Position numbers and translations under genes: made by a program. A stretch of 59,637 nt of DNA. It comes from an uncultured Deefgea sp. (GTDB taxonomy: Bacteria > Pseudomonadota > Gammaproteobacteria > Burkholderiales > Chitinibacteraceae). Below, piece by piece: positions 14,453-25,293 of the stretch. Position 1 is the stretch's first letter. Each line of letters begins with the position of its first letter. The notes beneath the pieces were generated by a model that was not told the DNA's origin, ran no database searches, and saw nothing but the letters and a program-made list of their open reading frames with translations. The stretch covers positions 1-59,637 of the forward strand of contig NZ_CAMTIA010000016.1 of assembly GCF_947072475.1 (NCBI RefSeq). The letters are read 5' to 3'.

Positions 14453-17400
14453 TTAAGGCTTAGCCGGGCTCCACGCTGCCAACCACAAATCCAGATTGTG
14501 CTCACGCAACATCCAGTCTTTGTTTACCGCAAACTTTAACTCGTCCCCCATTCTGGCCGCATTCTCTAAATCCATGGTATGAGCACGAATCGCATCAACC
14601 CAATCTTTATGCTTATTTTTAACCCGCGTTACCGGTAAATGCTGTGCATACGGCTCAATATCAGTACAAATCACTGGGTAACCAAAAACGCCATACTCAA
14701 GCAGACGGAGATTACTCTTGCATCGATTAAATAAATTATGCTCAAGCGGTGCGAGTGCTACATCTAGATTTAAGCTGGCCAGCTTTGCTGGATATTCATT
14801 AATCGGCACGCCAGCATGAAACTCATGCACATATGGCCTGAGCTTATCTGGGCACATACCAAAAAACACCCATTCCACTTCACCGGCCAATTCTTTCACC
14901 ACGTCCGCAATCAACTCCAAATCACCAGTGTGACTTACCCCCCCGGCCCATCCTACCCTAGGCTTTTTAGATTGTCGTCTTGCGGACGATACCCCACCCC
15001 AAACATTCGGCGACAAATAGTTATTGACTACATGAATATTTGAATGCAAACCTGAATAAGCATTTGCCAGTTCATCCGTTGACACAACAAATCGATCCAC
15101 CATGGTTAATGCTTTACGTAGCGACTTTAATATGTCTTTCGGCATTTGATCACGATGCGCACTTTTTAATGGCAAATTAGGTAAATAATCATCTAACTCA
15201 TAAATTTTAAATGATGAATTGCAGAATTTAGCTTGTCGCATAAATTCAAGTTGCTGCTCTGTAATTTGTCTTTGAAAAATCATGACATCTGGATTGTATT
15301 TCGCCAATTCAAACGGTGGTAATAACTCAAACGTTAATGAACCGGTGATTTTCAATTCTTGTTCAAGTGCCAAAAACGGCTGAATTAATCGATAATTTCC
15401 ACACCCCATTTGATCAGCAGGATGGCATAATATTTTTGGCGCAGGATGCCAAGTTAATGGATTCCAGCTTAATAAAGCACGATGCTCTAACTCAAAACCA
15501 TTACCGCTTAATGTTAAATTTTTGTTGTATGCTGGATCATTGCCAATTTTAGACGACCATTTGGCATACATTGCTTGCTGCTCGGATTGGAAACGGCGCA
15601 CTTTCTCCGTTTGCTTGGCTACATCAACCGTATTCTGACTAACACTTCCTTCATGCAAGACGACCGAAAATGGCGTCCAAACTACCAACAGCCCCAACTC
15701 ACCGACTTTCAAACACAAGTCGACATCGTTATACGAAACCTTAAAATCCACCTCATTCATGCCACCAACCTGCTGATAAACCGATCGGCGAATCATTAAA
15801 CACGCAGCAGTCACTGCAGAATAATTCTGCTCCAATTGCAAACGATGCATATAGCCAGAGTTTTCATGCGCAGCCCCTATGCATGGGTGATCAGCAGGAC
15901 CACGCAAACCCAATACCACACCTGCGTGCTGTACAAGTCCGCTTGGATATAATAATTTTGCACCAACAACACCGACGTCAGGGCGCGCGGCATGCTGCAA
16001 TAATTCATCAAGCCATGTATTTTGAATAATAGCCGTATCATTATTCAACAACACCAAATACTCACCACGAGCTTGACTGACCGCAAAATTATTAATCGCA
16101 GAAAAATTAAATGCATGCGGATACGATAAAACTCGAAGTCGACCAGCCAAGAGTGATTCAAGTTGATTTAAATAAGGCGCAACAAGGGGATCATCACTTT
16201 GATTATCAATCACAATAATTTCATAGTACTGATAACTGGTTTTTTCTAAAATAGATTCAATACACCTTTGCAGCATTGGCAATTGATTCTTTGTTGGAAT
16301 AACAATACTCACCAATGGAGAATCTGGCATTGCATACTGAATACGCAAAGCACCTTCGACACGATTATTTTCAGAAACAACTGCAGCAAGGCCTAATCGC
16401 TCAAGATGAGCACAAATCAAGTCATAGAATGCTTGATAACGCGTGATATTTGATAAAACTCGAGCATCATTAATATTCAAATGAGCAACAAGCTCAGACA
16501 CATGACCAATCGATTTCGCGCCAAACCGTTCATAACAAGACAACAACATTGCGATTTGCTCACAGCCAAACATGTCAATTGCAATCGAACTGAGCAAATC
16601 TAACTGATTATTTTTTAACAATACAAATCCATCAGCATAAGGCATGCTGCGAATTAAATTGATATCAAAATCAGGTTTAAATCTTGGGCAAGCTGGTCGA
16701 CCATCTAAATTAATAATGTCATCATCAAAATAAACCGACTTCCATTCTTCTTTATCAACGATTTGATGCATCGCAAGCAACAGACCAGTCAGCGTCAATT
16801 CATCACCAGCCTCTAAAAAACCAAGCCAATCGCAATCATGATTGATATTTAAGCATGTTGAATAAAAGTCTTGATTCGTTCTAATCCAATCTAAGCCACC
16901 ACCTTGCATTGGATTTTCTGCTGTAGAGCAAATCAATACATTTAAATTTGAATAAAGCTGCTGAGAAATACTCTTAATTGTTTTAATAACTAAATTTTTA
17001 TCGCCAAAACGATCGACAATACAAATCTTCACTTTAGGCATTTCTCTTGATGCAGCATGAAGATCAAGAAGTTTAGCCTCACTCTCGCTTAATTTTTGCT
17101 GATTTAGCCAATGCAAATACTCTTCACTACTATTAGGGAATCGTGGATTAGGTACATTGCCCTGATAACCGGCATCAACAGTTAATAGACCTTGATGATA
17201 AGCAACTAAAGGAAATAAGCGCTCGATAGCATGCGCCAGCGTGCCATCGGTTTGACCTAATTCAGGTTCAAAATCATCTACAAAAACATTTAGCGCACGC
17301 AATGAATCAAACACGCGCCCGCGACACCAAAACATCGAGCCACCGGGGAACTCATAGGCCATTTCATCCAAATTAAAACCCAAGCGTGCGGCCAATTCAC

Positions 17401-18757
17401 GCAACAAATTAATATTGCCACCTGGCGAATAATGCGCGTACAACAATCCTCCAGCGCCGGCAACAATACCCACCTCTGGACGTGAATTAAATAAATCAAA
17501 AATTGCTTTTACACCATCCTGAGACGGCAACAAAGAATTCAGTACTTCATTACGCCATTTTTGTACAAATTCAGGATCTAAATGTAATGATTTTTTAGTG
17601 TGTAATTTGCAAACAAAATCATACTCTCCCAAATTTTCATGTTGCAATAGGGTAACTAGCGGGCCGATATCTCTGCCACGATTTTCTGTGATATACAATT
17701 TAGCCGCAGGATATGAATGCGTGAGAAAATCACTGACTCGACCTTGATTTTCTGGCGTCGTTGTTACAATCAAATCAAAACCGTTTGGAATATTTTTTAA
17801 TAAATCCGAAATATCTTCCCATTGATCTAAATAAAATAGATGCAAAACAACAGCTATACGCGGATTTATACGCAGGTAATTTAAACTAGCGTGATCATCC
17901 TGTTTTGGTGCCGATTTCCCTTGTGAATTAATAACACCCAGCACATCCCCATGGTGTATTGCAGTGATTTTAGGCAAATGAATATGAGTTATTCCAACAG
18001 CTAAAAACCTTTCCCATAAATCCCAATCACCAGGATAACAATACCGCCAGCAATTAATGTTGTAACGAAATGTTTTTAAACCCGCGTGATAAATAGATGA
18101 TATTCGTGAAATTCCACCTTGCACTGGCTGTGCAGCACCAACAATGGTTTGATCAACCCCTTGATCATCTTTGAATAAAACTTGGGCGTGCACCCACTCT
18201 GCCCTTGCAAGTTGCGCAGTACGCAGCAGCGATGACAAATGATCGGGCAGAAACTCGTCGTCATCATCAAGATGTGCAATCCATTGTCCGGTTGCGACAC
18301 GCAACCCAAAATTCACTGGCTTAGTTCCCGCAACATACCAACGTGGTCCATCAAAATTCGGATAACGCCCTCGGCGCTTCAAATTATAAAAACCGATCCG
18401 AGGATCAATTTCACTAACATTTGCCAGTTTTGCAGCAGACTCATTTGCCATCTGATCACCAATAATGATCAGCTCCCAATTTTGATAATTCTGTGCCAAA
18501 ACGGATGGAATTGTTCGTTCAAGCAAAATATCTGCGCGATTAAAAGTAGGAATAATGATTGATATTTTAGGGTTTGCTTCAAAAGCAGATTGATACGAGG
18601 CGGAAGCCCGAATAGCTTCCAAACGATGCATATCTTGGTGACGAATGGCCGATTTTTGCTCAACGCCAAGCGCCAAAAAAAATTGCTGAGAAAACGCCAG
18701 CTGCTTTTTTAGCCAATCATTTTCAATACTCAACTGCGCCAATTCATCGATCGTCAT
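14453..18757 (-). CDS. Giant multi-domain glycosyltransferase
   Basis: This 1434-residue cytoplasmic or membrane-associated protein joins several glycosyltransferase modules. After a short N-terminal helix, a GT-A (family 2) domain covers about residues 60-295, with ISIIIPTFNRAD and the acidic metal-binding stretch AHLDDDDEFLP. A rhamnan-synthesis RgpF-like domain follows at about 300-550 (NRGRDIGPLVTLL). A weaker GT2-like region lies at about 575-790. A second clear GT-A domain lies at about 812-1050 (LVSIVIPTKNQ, LLNNDTAI). A GT-B-like C-terminal module covers about 1105-1430 (RVGWAGGVSHTGD, RLLEYGVFGYPVICTD). Such proteins build or extend surface glycans. It is last in the sugar operon and sits directly before the fliC promoter, so flagellin glycosylation or an O-polysaccharide are the main options. 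Confidence 0.85.
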   Translation of the reverse strand: MTIDELAQLSIENDWLKKQLAFSQQFFLALGVEQKSAIRHQDMHRLEAIRASASYQSAFEANPKISIIIPTFNRADILLERTIPSVLAQNYQNWELIIIGDQMANESAAKLANVSEIDPRIGFYNLKRRGRYPNFDGPRWYVAGTKPVNFGLRVATGQWIAHLDDDDEFLPDHLSSLLRTAQLARAEWVHAQVLFKDDQGVDQTIVGAAQPVQGGISRISSIYHAGLKTFRYNINCWRYCYPGDWDLWERFLAVGITHIHLPKITAIHHGDVLGVINSQGKSAPKQDDHASLNYLRINPRIAVVLHLFYLDQWEDISDLLKNIPNGFDLIVTTTPENQGRVSDFLTHSYPAAKLYITENRGRDIGPLVTLLQHENLGEYDFVCKLHTKKSLHLDPEFVQKWRNEVLNSLLPSQDGVKAIFDLFNSRPEVGIVAGAGGLLYAHYSPGGNINLLRELAARLGFNLDEMAYEFPGGSMFWCRGRVFDSLRALNVFVDDFEPELGQTDGTLAHAIERLFPLVAYHQGLLTVDAGYQGNVPNPRFPNSSEEYLHWLNQQKLSESEAKLLDLHAASREMPKVKICIVDRFGDKNLVIKTIKSISQQLYSNLNVLICSTAENPMQGGGLDWIRTNQDFYSTCLNINHDCDWLGFLEAGDELTLTGLLLAMHQIVDKEEWKSVYFDDDIINLDGRPACPRFKPDFDINLIRSMPYADGFVLLKNNQLDLLSSIAIDMFGCEQIAMLLSCYERFGAKSIGHVSELVAHLNINDARVLSNITRYQAFYDLICAHLERLGLAAVVSENNRVEGALRIQYAMPDSPLVSIVIPTKNQLPMLQRCIESILEKTSYQYYEIIVIDNQSDDPLVAPYLNQLESLLAGRLRVLSYPHAFNFSAINNFAVSQARGEYLVLLNNDTAIIQNTWLDELLQHAARPDVGVVGAKLLYPSGLVQHAGVVLGLRGPADHPCIGAAHENSGYMHRLQLEQNYSAVTAACLMIRRSVYQQVGGMNEVDFKVSYNDVDLCLKVGELGLLVVWTPFSVVLHEGSVSQNTVDVAKQTEKVRRFQSEQQAMYAKWSSKIGNDPAYNKNLTLSGNGFELEHRALLSWNPLTWHPAPKILCHPADQMGCGNYRLIQPFLALEQELKITGSLTFELLPPFELAKYNPDVMIFQRQITEQQLEFMRQAKFCNSSFKIYELDDYLPNLPLKSAHRDQMPKDILKSLRKALTMVDRFVVSTDELANAYSGLHSNIHVVNNYLSPNVWGGVSSARRQSKKPRVGWAGGVSHTGDLELIADVVKELAGEVEWVFFGMCPDKLRPYVHEFHAGVPINEYPAKLASLNLDVALAPLEHNLFNRCKSNLRLLEYGVFGYPVICTDIEPYAQHLPVTRVKNKHKDWVDAIRAHTMDLENAARMGDELKFAVNKDWMLREHNLDLWLAAWSPAKP

Positions 18758-21228: not shown

Positions 21229-21388
21229 TCAATGAACGACGGTTAAAAACTTAGGAATCATTAAATAAAACTCAAAACTTACGCTTTTTCTTTATGACTT
21301 AGAATTAAAAAAATCACTGATTGCAGTCCAACACAAAAGCCAAAACAACAATGGCTCGCAACAAACCAAGCACCATATTAAATAAACA

Positions 21389-21419
21389 AAAAGGGTGCTA
21401 CCAGAAGTAGCACCCTTTT
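21389..21419 (-). terminator. galU intrinsic terminator
   Basis: AAAAGGGTGCTAC and GTAGCACCCTTTT form a perfect 13-bp stem with a 5-nt loop, followed on the minus strand by Ts. It lies 21 bp after the galU stop and separates galU from the surface-sugar operon. The A/T-flanked stem should work in both directions. Confidence 0.9.
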
Positions 21420-21439
21420 GTTTCATTCATTACTCACAT

Positions 21440-22315
21440 TTACTTTGCTTGGCAAAAATCTTTTAAATAAGCAGTAAATTCCTCACCCACTTCGTGGTGT
21501 TTCATCCCCAATTCAACCGTCGCTTTCAAAAAGCCGATTTTGCTGCCGCAGTCGTAGCGGGTGCCTTCTAGCTTGTGGGCGAGGATGTGTTGCTCTTGCA
21601 TTAAGGCAAAAATGCCGTCGGTGAGCTGGATTTCGCCACCTTTACCCGGCTGCACGTGCTGCAAGTGATGAAAAATCCTCGGGGTAAGGATATATCGGCC
21701 AACCACGGCCAAATTTGAGGGGGCTTCTTCCGGTTTTGGTTTTTCAACGATATTGCCAATGCGCAAACGGCCGGCGTGTTCAGACACTTCAACAATGCCG
21801 TAGCTACCGGTTTCTTCCATCGCTACTTTTTCAACCCCGAGTACCGAGCAATGCGTGTCGTCAAACACGTCGACCATGCGCTTCATTTCGGACACGCCAT
21901 TGCCGTCGATTAAATCGTCGGCCAAAATCACCGCGAATGGCTCATCACCCACCACTGGCTTGGCGCACAATACCGCGTGCCCCAAACCCAAGGCTTCTGG
22001 CTGGCGAATATAAATACACGTGACCGACTTAGGAATAATCCCGCGCAAGATTTCGAGCAATTTGGTTTTTTGTTTGGCTTCTAAATCCGCCTCTAGCTCA
22101 CCGGCTTTATCAAAGTGGTCTTCAATACTGCGTTTATGTCGACCAGTGATAAAAATCATTTCGGTAATGCCCGCAGCCAACGCTTCTTCTACCGCGTATT
22201 GAATCAGCGGTTTATCGACGATTGACATCATTTCTTTGGGGCTGGCCTTAGTGGCTGGCAAGAAACGCGTACCCATACCGGCGACAGGGAATACGGCTTT
22301 GCGGATTTTTTGCAT
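21440..22315 (-). CDS. galU: UTP-glucose-1-phosphate uridylyltransferase GalU
   Basis: GalU makes UDP-glucose from UTP and glucose-1-phosphate, a precursor for polysaccharides, LPS core and trehalose. The 291-residue protein begins [29 protein letters not shown], with the nucleotide-binding signature of bacterial GalU. It ends with the family's C-terminal [14 protein letters not shown] region. I place its start at 22315, where an AAGGAAG ribosome-binding site lies 4 nt upstream. The frame stays open for a further 67 codons that encode a Cro-like helix-turn-helix, described separately, so a longer fusion protein is possible. The strong terminator at 21389-21419 ends the unit. Confidence 0.93.
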
Positions 22316-22516
22316 GGAACTTCCTTGTTGAACAGGTGACGCGATCAAGCCTAGGCGCAATGCGGCGCCCATCACTTGATCGGATTGTTTTTGATTGAGT
22401 TGATCCGGCCACTGCGAAACCGCAGAACGCCCCAAGCCCAAGGCTTCGGCGAGACGGGTTTGTGAACCAAATAATTGTAGAGCATCAGACTTACGCATAC
22501 CGTTATGTTTAATCAT
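22316..22516 (-). CDS. In-frame Cro-like HTH segment upstream of GalU
   Basis: These 67 codons are continuous with galU and contain no stop. They encode a small DNA-binding module: [20 protein letters not shown] followed by [12 protein letters not shown] fits the helix-turn-helix of phage Cro/CI proteins. The remainder ([13 protein letters not shown]) looks like the closing helix of a complete domain of about 60 residues. Starts at 22516 (ATG) or 22498 (ATG, beginning MRKSDAL) are possible. The first overlaps an operator-like inverted repeat, so I favour 22498. If translated from here, the product is an HTH-GalU fusion of about 352 residues. If ribosomes also start at 22315, two isoforms result. 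A lost stop codon is an alternative explanation. Confidence 0.6.
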
Positions 22517-22523
22517 TTAAACA
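22506..22523. promoter_or_regulatory. Operator-like inverted repeat 1 (HTH-galU)
   Basis: On the minus strand the sequence is TGTTTAAATGATTAAACA: 6-bp arms TGTTTA/TAAACA with a 6-nt spacer. The same arms and spacing recur at 22555-22572, with centres 49 bp apart. The site covers the first possible start of the HTH segment, so a protein bound here would block expression, as expected for autoregulation by a Cro-like protein. Confidence 0.6.
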
Positions 22524-22552
22524 GCAAAGTCAATACTTACCTCGACTTAAAA

Positions 22553-22574
22553 TTTGTTTATTTTTCTAAACAAA
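22553..22574. promoter_or_regulatory. Operator-like inverted repeat 2 (HTH-galU)
   Basis: On the minus strand TTTGTTTA, six bases, then TAAACAAA: an inverted repeat with perfect 8-bp arms whose core (22555-22572) has the same arms and 6-nt spacer as the first site. It lies just upstream of the presumed promoter region of HTH-galU. Confidence 0.6.
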
Positions 22575-22705
22575 ATGTACATGCGCTTGCTGATTGCCGT
22601 GAGAGCGATGACAAACCGGTTGTTGATCGTATTTTTGCTTTAGAGACCGACAAAAAACGTGGTATTTGAAGCGGCGGGCTCGCCCTGCGCGCTAAATAAG
22701 AAAAC

Positions 22706-22769
22706 CTTCGCGGGCAAGCACGCTCGTAGCATCACCCTCACCCTAGCCCTCTCCCATCAAGGGAGAGGG
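22706..22769. repeat. REP-like and CTCTCCC hairpin repeats
   Basis: In the gap between HTH-galU and ligA (about 360 bp), a REP-like sequence (TTCGCGGGCAAGCACGCTCG) is followed by CACCCTCACCCTAGCCCTCT. A perfect 9-bp hairpin CCCTCTCCC/GGGAGAGGG with a 5-nt loop then lies at 22747-22769. Similar sequences are scattered in many proteobacterial genomes. An open frame of 54 codons on the plus strand (22505-22669) lies across the operators and is not supported as a gene. Confidence 0.65.
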
Positions 22770-22875
22770 AATGCCGCGAAGCTTTAATCACTATCAACAC
22801 GTAATCTGAAGATTACCAATCATTCATAGGTATATCATTACAGCCCTTACCAAAAAACAGCTACCAGCAGATACC

Positions 22876-25293
<2,418 letters not shown>

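Follow-up and report, generated by a model that had tools for sequence, protein, structure and literature searches.

A helix-turn-helix fused to GalU in Chitinibacteraceae: a probable trigger enzyme acting on its own gene

In the part of PMC8249747 consulted, BirA, NadR, PepA, PutA and PyrH are given as trigger enzymes of Escherichia coli, and PutA is reported there to bind nowhere but in the putA-putP spacer, where its own promoter region lies. PutA, BirA and NadR are likewise metabolic enzymes carrying their own DNA-binding domain, and PutA is nearest in logic to the protein described here, in which a helix-turn-helix (HTH) precedes GalU. Trigger enzymes as such are already known; what differs here is that the enzyme is a GalU, that its head is an HTH of the P22 Cro type, and that the gene has a probable leaderless start together with a probable internal start giving a headless enzyme. 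P22 Cro and the N15-type all-helical Cro proteins (PF14549, 1RZS) resemble HTH-GalU in HTH sequence over residues 1-39, and P22 Cro-type proteins bind palindromic sites of similar size. Unlike P22 Cro, HTH-GalU gives no free small protein, it is chromosomal and family-wide, and its similarity covers profile positions 1-33 of 60. Lambda cI is named among leaderless mRNAs in the portion of PMC9031893 consulted. Its repressor is made from an AUG at the 5' end, as we infer for HTH-GalU, but the latter adds a fused enzyme and, within the gene, a second start with a Shine-Dalgarno, and its leaderlessness is a prediction. GalU of other Betaproteobacteria belongs to the same TIGR01099 equivalog and, in six ligA-linked relatives, has a start like M62 of the fused protein, but it is unfused. 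Searches of the literature for HTH-GalU, or for galU in Chitinibacter, returned no report of such a fusion among the titles and abstract openings listed.

The window, that is, the whole stretch of 59,637 nucleotides analysed, carries the fused gene on its minus strand (Table 1). The sequence-only reading had described a galU frame open through 67 upstream codons that encode a Cro-type HTH. The ORF list and translation of the window bear out the frame, which extends over 358 aa from 22516 to 21440 with 67 codons ahead of the GalU ATG at 22315. Of the two starts proposed in that reading, 22498 is the likely one, as M is invariant there in 40 of 40 genes of the family, whereas the ATG at 22516 was rejected because it lies inside the proximal operator and is not seen outside the window's genus.

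Table 1. Features of the HTH-GalU locus, with positions in the window
Feature	Position	Strand	Basis or remark
HTH-GalU fusion gene	21440..22498	-	352 aa, counted from the conserved start codon (22498); open in 40/40 gene-carrying family members
P22-Cro-type helix-turn-helix, residues 1-52	22343..22498	-	PF14549, 1RZS, dN/dS, model pLDDT
Linker, residues 53-61	22316..22342	-	Length and sequence vary between genera; pLDDT <50 at 55-61
GalU (UTP--glucose-1-phosphate uridylyltransferase), own start 22315	21440..22315	-	TIGR01099; M62 aligned with unfused starts
Shine-Dalgarno AAGGAAG of internal GalU start	22320..22326	-	Core kept at this place in 40/40
Proximal operator (candidate) TGTTTA-N6-TAAACA	22506..22523	.	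Overlaps putative -10; family consensus 11-12 of 12 in 40/40
Distal operator (candidate) TGTTTA-N6-TAAACA	22555..22572	.	49 bp upstream of proximal; 10-12 of 12 in 40/40
-35 hexamer TTGACT	22528..22533	-	TTG 40/40, TTGAC 37/40
Putative -10 AAACAT (family RAACAT), 17-bp spacer	22505..22510	-	Column counts; predicted +1 about 22498, A of HTH ATG
Terminator-like hairpin 3' of gene, 14 pairs then T-rich	21389..21419	-	Hairpin scan

The Cro-type assignment likewise finds support. Against Pfam P22_Cro (PF14549, cut-off 30.2), the segment alone scores 33.7 bits and the whole protein 29.9 bits, just below the cut-off, the match covering the first 33 of the 60 profile positions. A profile built from the HTH of the family finds P22 Cro (PDB 1RZS) as its best match, with an E value of 1.4e-8. 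The C-terminal part is GalU by NCBIfam TIGR01099, at 373.3 bits against an equivalog cut-off of 326.8, and many GalU columns do not vary in a comparison of 21 fused with 45 unfused relatives, by which the enzyme domain is judged intact in the fused protein. We also modeled the structure of the protein as a monomer from 66 sequences (mean pLDDT 82.5, pTM 0.72). The HTH reaches a pLDDT of about 90 over residues 1-40, the linker is poorly defined (Table 1), and GalU is mostly folded, with two stretches below 50 (73-89 and 123-132). A model based only on sequences of the family had been poor, with a mean pLDDT of 43.3. An Rfam scan of 21300-22900 gave no match, and the hairpin scan of the region listed 6 terminator-like sites, with 2.6 expected.

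Searching the window's family, we found the fused gene in 40 of 43 Chitinibacteraceae genomes and in 10 of 11 genera. We read each of the 40 genes. In all of them HTH and GalU share one open frame, which places the DNA-binding domain in the same polypeptide as the enzyme, and the sole TGA counted within the family matches (genome G018) precedes the HTH ATG. The check for a conserved stop codon between HTH and galU in relatives, which the sequence-only reading had proposed, found none in 40 of 40 genes, window included. The genes do not encode a small free-standing repressor of the P22_Cro type, as no stop stands before GalU; an HTH on its own could arise only through cleavage, frameshift or early release. 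A scan of 84,980 species with short HTH peptide patterns, which detects close relatives only, returned 22 named records, all fused and with both operator sites present; they are largely the same genomes as the 40 and do not count as independent. They are labelled Deefgea, Chitinibacter, Andreprevotia, Silvimonas, Jeongeupia, Amantichitinum, Chitinolyticbacter, Iodobacter, Chitinilyticum and Chitiniphilus, together with two metagenome assemblies under other labels, and all ten named genera are Chitinibacteraceae, Neisseriales.

Within the family, the full-length match is confined to these 40. Genus g8, with three genomes, gave weak matches only (best E 1e-12), and the HTH profile found nothing in its genomes; these three (G024-G026) are without the HTH and without a close GalU ortholog. 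Besides the fused gene, genome G007 has a second galU (L060:1069-2004) that is 60% identical, with no HTH in its 311-aa ORF.

Across the HTH and linker, 25 columns are invariant in the 40 genes, M1 among them, and M62 is invariant too. The median dN/dS was 0.114 for HTH codons 1-52 versus 0.088 for GalU, from pairs that are not independent of each other; of 780 pairs for each part, 350 (HTH) and 326 (GalU) were usable, the other 430 and 454 being excluded as saturated or failed. These ratios indicate that the HTH is under purifying selection. The HTH plus linker measures 60 codons in 9 genes, 61 in 7, 62 in 20, 63 in 2 and 67 in 2. Five values need at least four length changes. On the GalU tree, which was built by a quick method and leaves 13 of its 33 inner branches open, five are required, all of them multiples of three bases. 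If frame were irrelevant, with a chance of about 1 in 3 for each change, we estimate that frame would be kept throughout with a chance of about 1% for four changes and 0.4% for five.

The two identical inverted repeats upstream, TGTTTA-N6-TAAACA, were confirmed, and they are the only two in the window, where 0.02 were expected and none of 100 shuffles contained two. Written as TGTTYA-N6-TRAACA with at most 2 of 12 letters off, both sites recur in 40 of 40 relatives, so the pairs are conserved as the earlier reading had asked. These are the best matches within short search ranges; under a stricter pattern, both sites are found in 38 of 40. Compared with the 12 fixed letters, the proximal site is perfect in 35 genes with one miss in 5, and the distal site is perfect in 30, with one miss in 8 and two in 2. 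The spacing between them is confined to 48-51 bp (49 in 25 genes, 50 in 9, 48 in 5, 51 in 1). By our arithmetic such distances do not correspond to complete helix turns of 10.5 bp, so it is not evident that a single tetramer would occupy the two sites together.

Aligned on the proximal site, the TTG of a -35 hexamer is invariant, followed by A and C in 38 of 40 genes each. After the 17-bp spacer comes RAACAT, its second-place A present in 40 of 40 and its last T in 36 of 40, overlapping the right arm of the proximal operator. RAACAT is a weak match to the -10 consensus, and a promoter scan demanding 4 of 6 does not list this promoter. The HTH ATG lies 7 nt past the operator in 21 genes, 8 nt in 18 and 6 nt in 1. 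With the T of the -10 placed at -7, the first transcribed nucleotide would be the A of the HTH ATG or one nucleotide away, and we infer that the transcript starts at about the HTH ATG. Since the distal site is not part of either promoter hexamer, its conservation is not accounted for by promoter function.

The two start codons differ sharply in what precedes them. The sequence-only reading had given GalU a ribosome-binding site of its own, and the AAGGAAG it pointed to is correct; a ribosome-binding site is retained at this place in all 40 genes. We scored as a Shine-Dalgarno core any of eight four-mers located 20 to 5 nt upstream of an ATG. Such a core precedes M62 in 40 of 40 genes, M1 in 0 of 40, and the other in-frame GalU ATGs in 59 of 314; mean duplex energies were -5.47, 0.36 and -2.47 kcal/mol, respectively. 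Around the M62 site the linker varies between genera in sequence and length, so the Shine-Dalgarno is kept while its surroundings change. The absence of a core at the HTH ATG in all 40 genes, together with the -35/-10 spacing, suggests that the HTH-GalU mRNA is probably leaderless. An HTH-free GalU is a probable second product, from the internal start on the same mRNA.

Taken together, these features make it very probable that in this bacterial family GalU regulates the gene that encodes it. We consider it probable that HTH-GalU is an autoregulated trigger enzyme, in which a leaderless fusion and an internally started GalU are made side by side and the gene is repressed through the proximal operator. 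One mRNA would begin at or next to the HTH ATG; ribosomes initiating there would make HTH-linker-GalU, and those initiating at the internal Shine-Dalgarno would make ordinary GalU. GalU oligomers would pair the HTH heads, one pair per TGTTYA-N6-TRAACA operator, and a GalU tetramer could hold both operators. Binding to the proximal operator would cover the -10 and shut the promoter, so that the level of GalU would set its own synthesis. Subunits without an HTH, made from the internal start, would lower the share of paired heads. Against plain autorepression, the distal site could serve activation. In Pseudomonas aeruginosa, the tetramer of GalU is needed for activity, according to the part of PMC11005391 consulted, so a fused enzyme can supply the pairing of HTH heads. 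We tentatively speculate further that the GalU oligomer is the dimerisation module of the Cro-like head: since the mRNA would yield headed (leaderless) and headless (Shine-Dalgarno) subunits, mixed oligomers might have few or no paired heads, and repression might be set by how often initiation is leaderless rather than ordinary, combined with the occupancy of GalU by UTP or UDP-glucose. If true, this would be a family-wide single-gene circuit tying UDP-glucose supply to ribosome state.

The core enzyme that supplies UDP-glucose, a central sugar donor, appears to repress its own gene in 10 genera of a single family. Through autorepression by HTH-GalU, the few known trigger enzymes would be joined by a sugar nucleotidyltransferase, and it would show a phage-type repressor head taken over by a housekeeping enzyme. 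The compact design, a leaderless fusion plus an internal start, would be testable with one promoter and one protein.

The same start-site data can be read in another way, which we regard as possible but doubtful: the internally started GalU may be the only enzyme that matters, and the fusion a rare leaderless protein acting purely as a repressor, with its GalU part serving to oligomerise it. The contrast in Shine-Dalgarno cores, present at every M62 and at no M1, fits such a division of labour, but both products share the GalU residues, so sequence cannot separate their activities. The operators, for their part, might be bound by the fusion as an activator or mixed regulator, the distal site (centre near -66) activating and the proximal one repressing; some phage repressors do act as mixed activator/repressor. 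Two sites at a near-fixed distance, the distal one upstream of the -35, and a weak -10 that would suit an activated promoter all agree with this. We consider it unlikely, as the proximal site covers the putative -10 in 40 of 40 genes, the classic repressor layout, and its agreement with the consensus is no worse than that of the distal site (35 versus 30 perfect).

Similar sites also occur elsewhere. In the 3.45-Mb genome of the window, TGTTYA-N6-TRAACA is found at four places, two at galU and two inside long ORFs, and the reversed control at none. The two extra sites lie in PepN-like and ApbE-like frames, named by eye. The 43 family genomes have 1-8 exact sites each and 0-6 matches to the reversed control, which is commoner than the operator pattern in G001 and G033; exact matches alone are therefore weak evidence away from galU. 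Genomes of genus g8, which have no HTH-GalU, contain 1-2 exact sites each. One of these, TGTTTA-N6-TGAACA at L177:1501-1518, stands just before the likely start of a regulator that looks HTH-cupin-like by eye, and the same 18 bases are also present in a second g8 genome. The site is reminiscent of a PuuR-type site. Its position before another HTH regulator means that such a site alone does not imply HTH-GalU, and that such sites can belong to other regulators. It is this site that speaks for a further reading, in which a different regulator binds the inverted repeats at galU and the HTH does something else, such as stabilising GalU. That reading seems improbable to us, given that both sites are found at the promoter of every one of the 40 fused genes; sites at the own promoter are the usual layout of an autoregulator.

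A wider regulon was also considered and rejected: among the places examined, and counting exact sites only, no second target promoter was common to genera. The four genomes of genus g9 listed in full have further TGTTYA-N6-TRAACA sites away from galU, several of them close together. Of four such loci that were read, L225 and L224 have their sites within a long frame that looks like a glycoside hydrolase by eye, and L226 and L221 have theirs in no listed ORF of at least 80 aa.

That the HTH frame is a functionless relic of an inserted phage gene, accidentally open to GalU, is hardly credible and was rejected: the HTH is indeed closest to phage regulators, but the stops or frameshifts in relatives that would support a relic occur in 0 of 40, and purifying selection (dN/dS), linker changes that preserve the frame, and the presence of invariant HTH residues and of both operators throughout 10 genera stand against it. 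The sequence-only reading had offered, as its own alternative, a small repressor gene that lost its stop. This may describe the origin of the fusion, but a recent accident does not fit 10 genera and five in-frame linker lengths.

HTH-GalU was also sought outside the family. In 399 genomes of the order, taking the best candidates per genome, the HTH profile gives E values below 1e-30 in 13 family members only, each time in the fused gene. Weak matches (E 1.4e-8 to 9e-4) occur in 13 other genomes, and two family members show a second weak match; two of the weak matches in the order sit in long frames, of 867 and 439 aa. Among the matches listed for the order (399 genomes) and the class (369 genomes), only family members align from position 1. 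We also examined 46 unfused galU loci, 32 of which matched the GalU motif used. Six of the 46 have more than 45 open codons before the first motif of GalU, and none of these looks HTH-like by eye.

Six unfused loci, all from the window's order, have ligA just upstream of galU. Their GalU starts as MQK(V/I)(R/K)KAV, at the residue matching M62, and its first motif begins 22-113 nt past the end of ligA, a gap that leaves no room for an HTH and a promoter. In the family, the ligA end signature is found 5' of the HTH in 35 of 40 genes, and a second pattern adds L034. The ligA-galU neighbours without fusion and the ligA upstream in the family suggest that the promoter, the two operators and the HTH came between ligA and galU, and that galU retained its own start.

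Two further features of the window were noticed. Between ligA and the galU promoter, at 22742-22769, lies a G+C-rich inverted repeat, CCCTCTCCC...GGGAGAGGG, whose 28-base pattern has a single match in the window when up to 3 mismatches are allowed. Downstream of galU, on the same strand, a 1434-aa ORF at 14453-18757 looks glycosyltransferase-like by eye.
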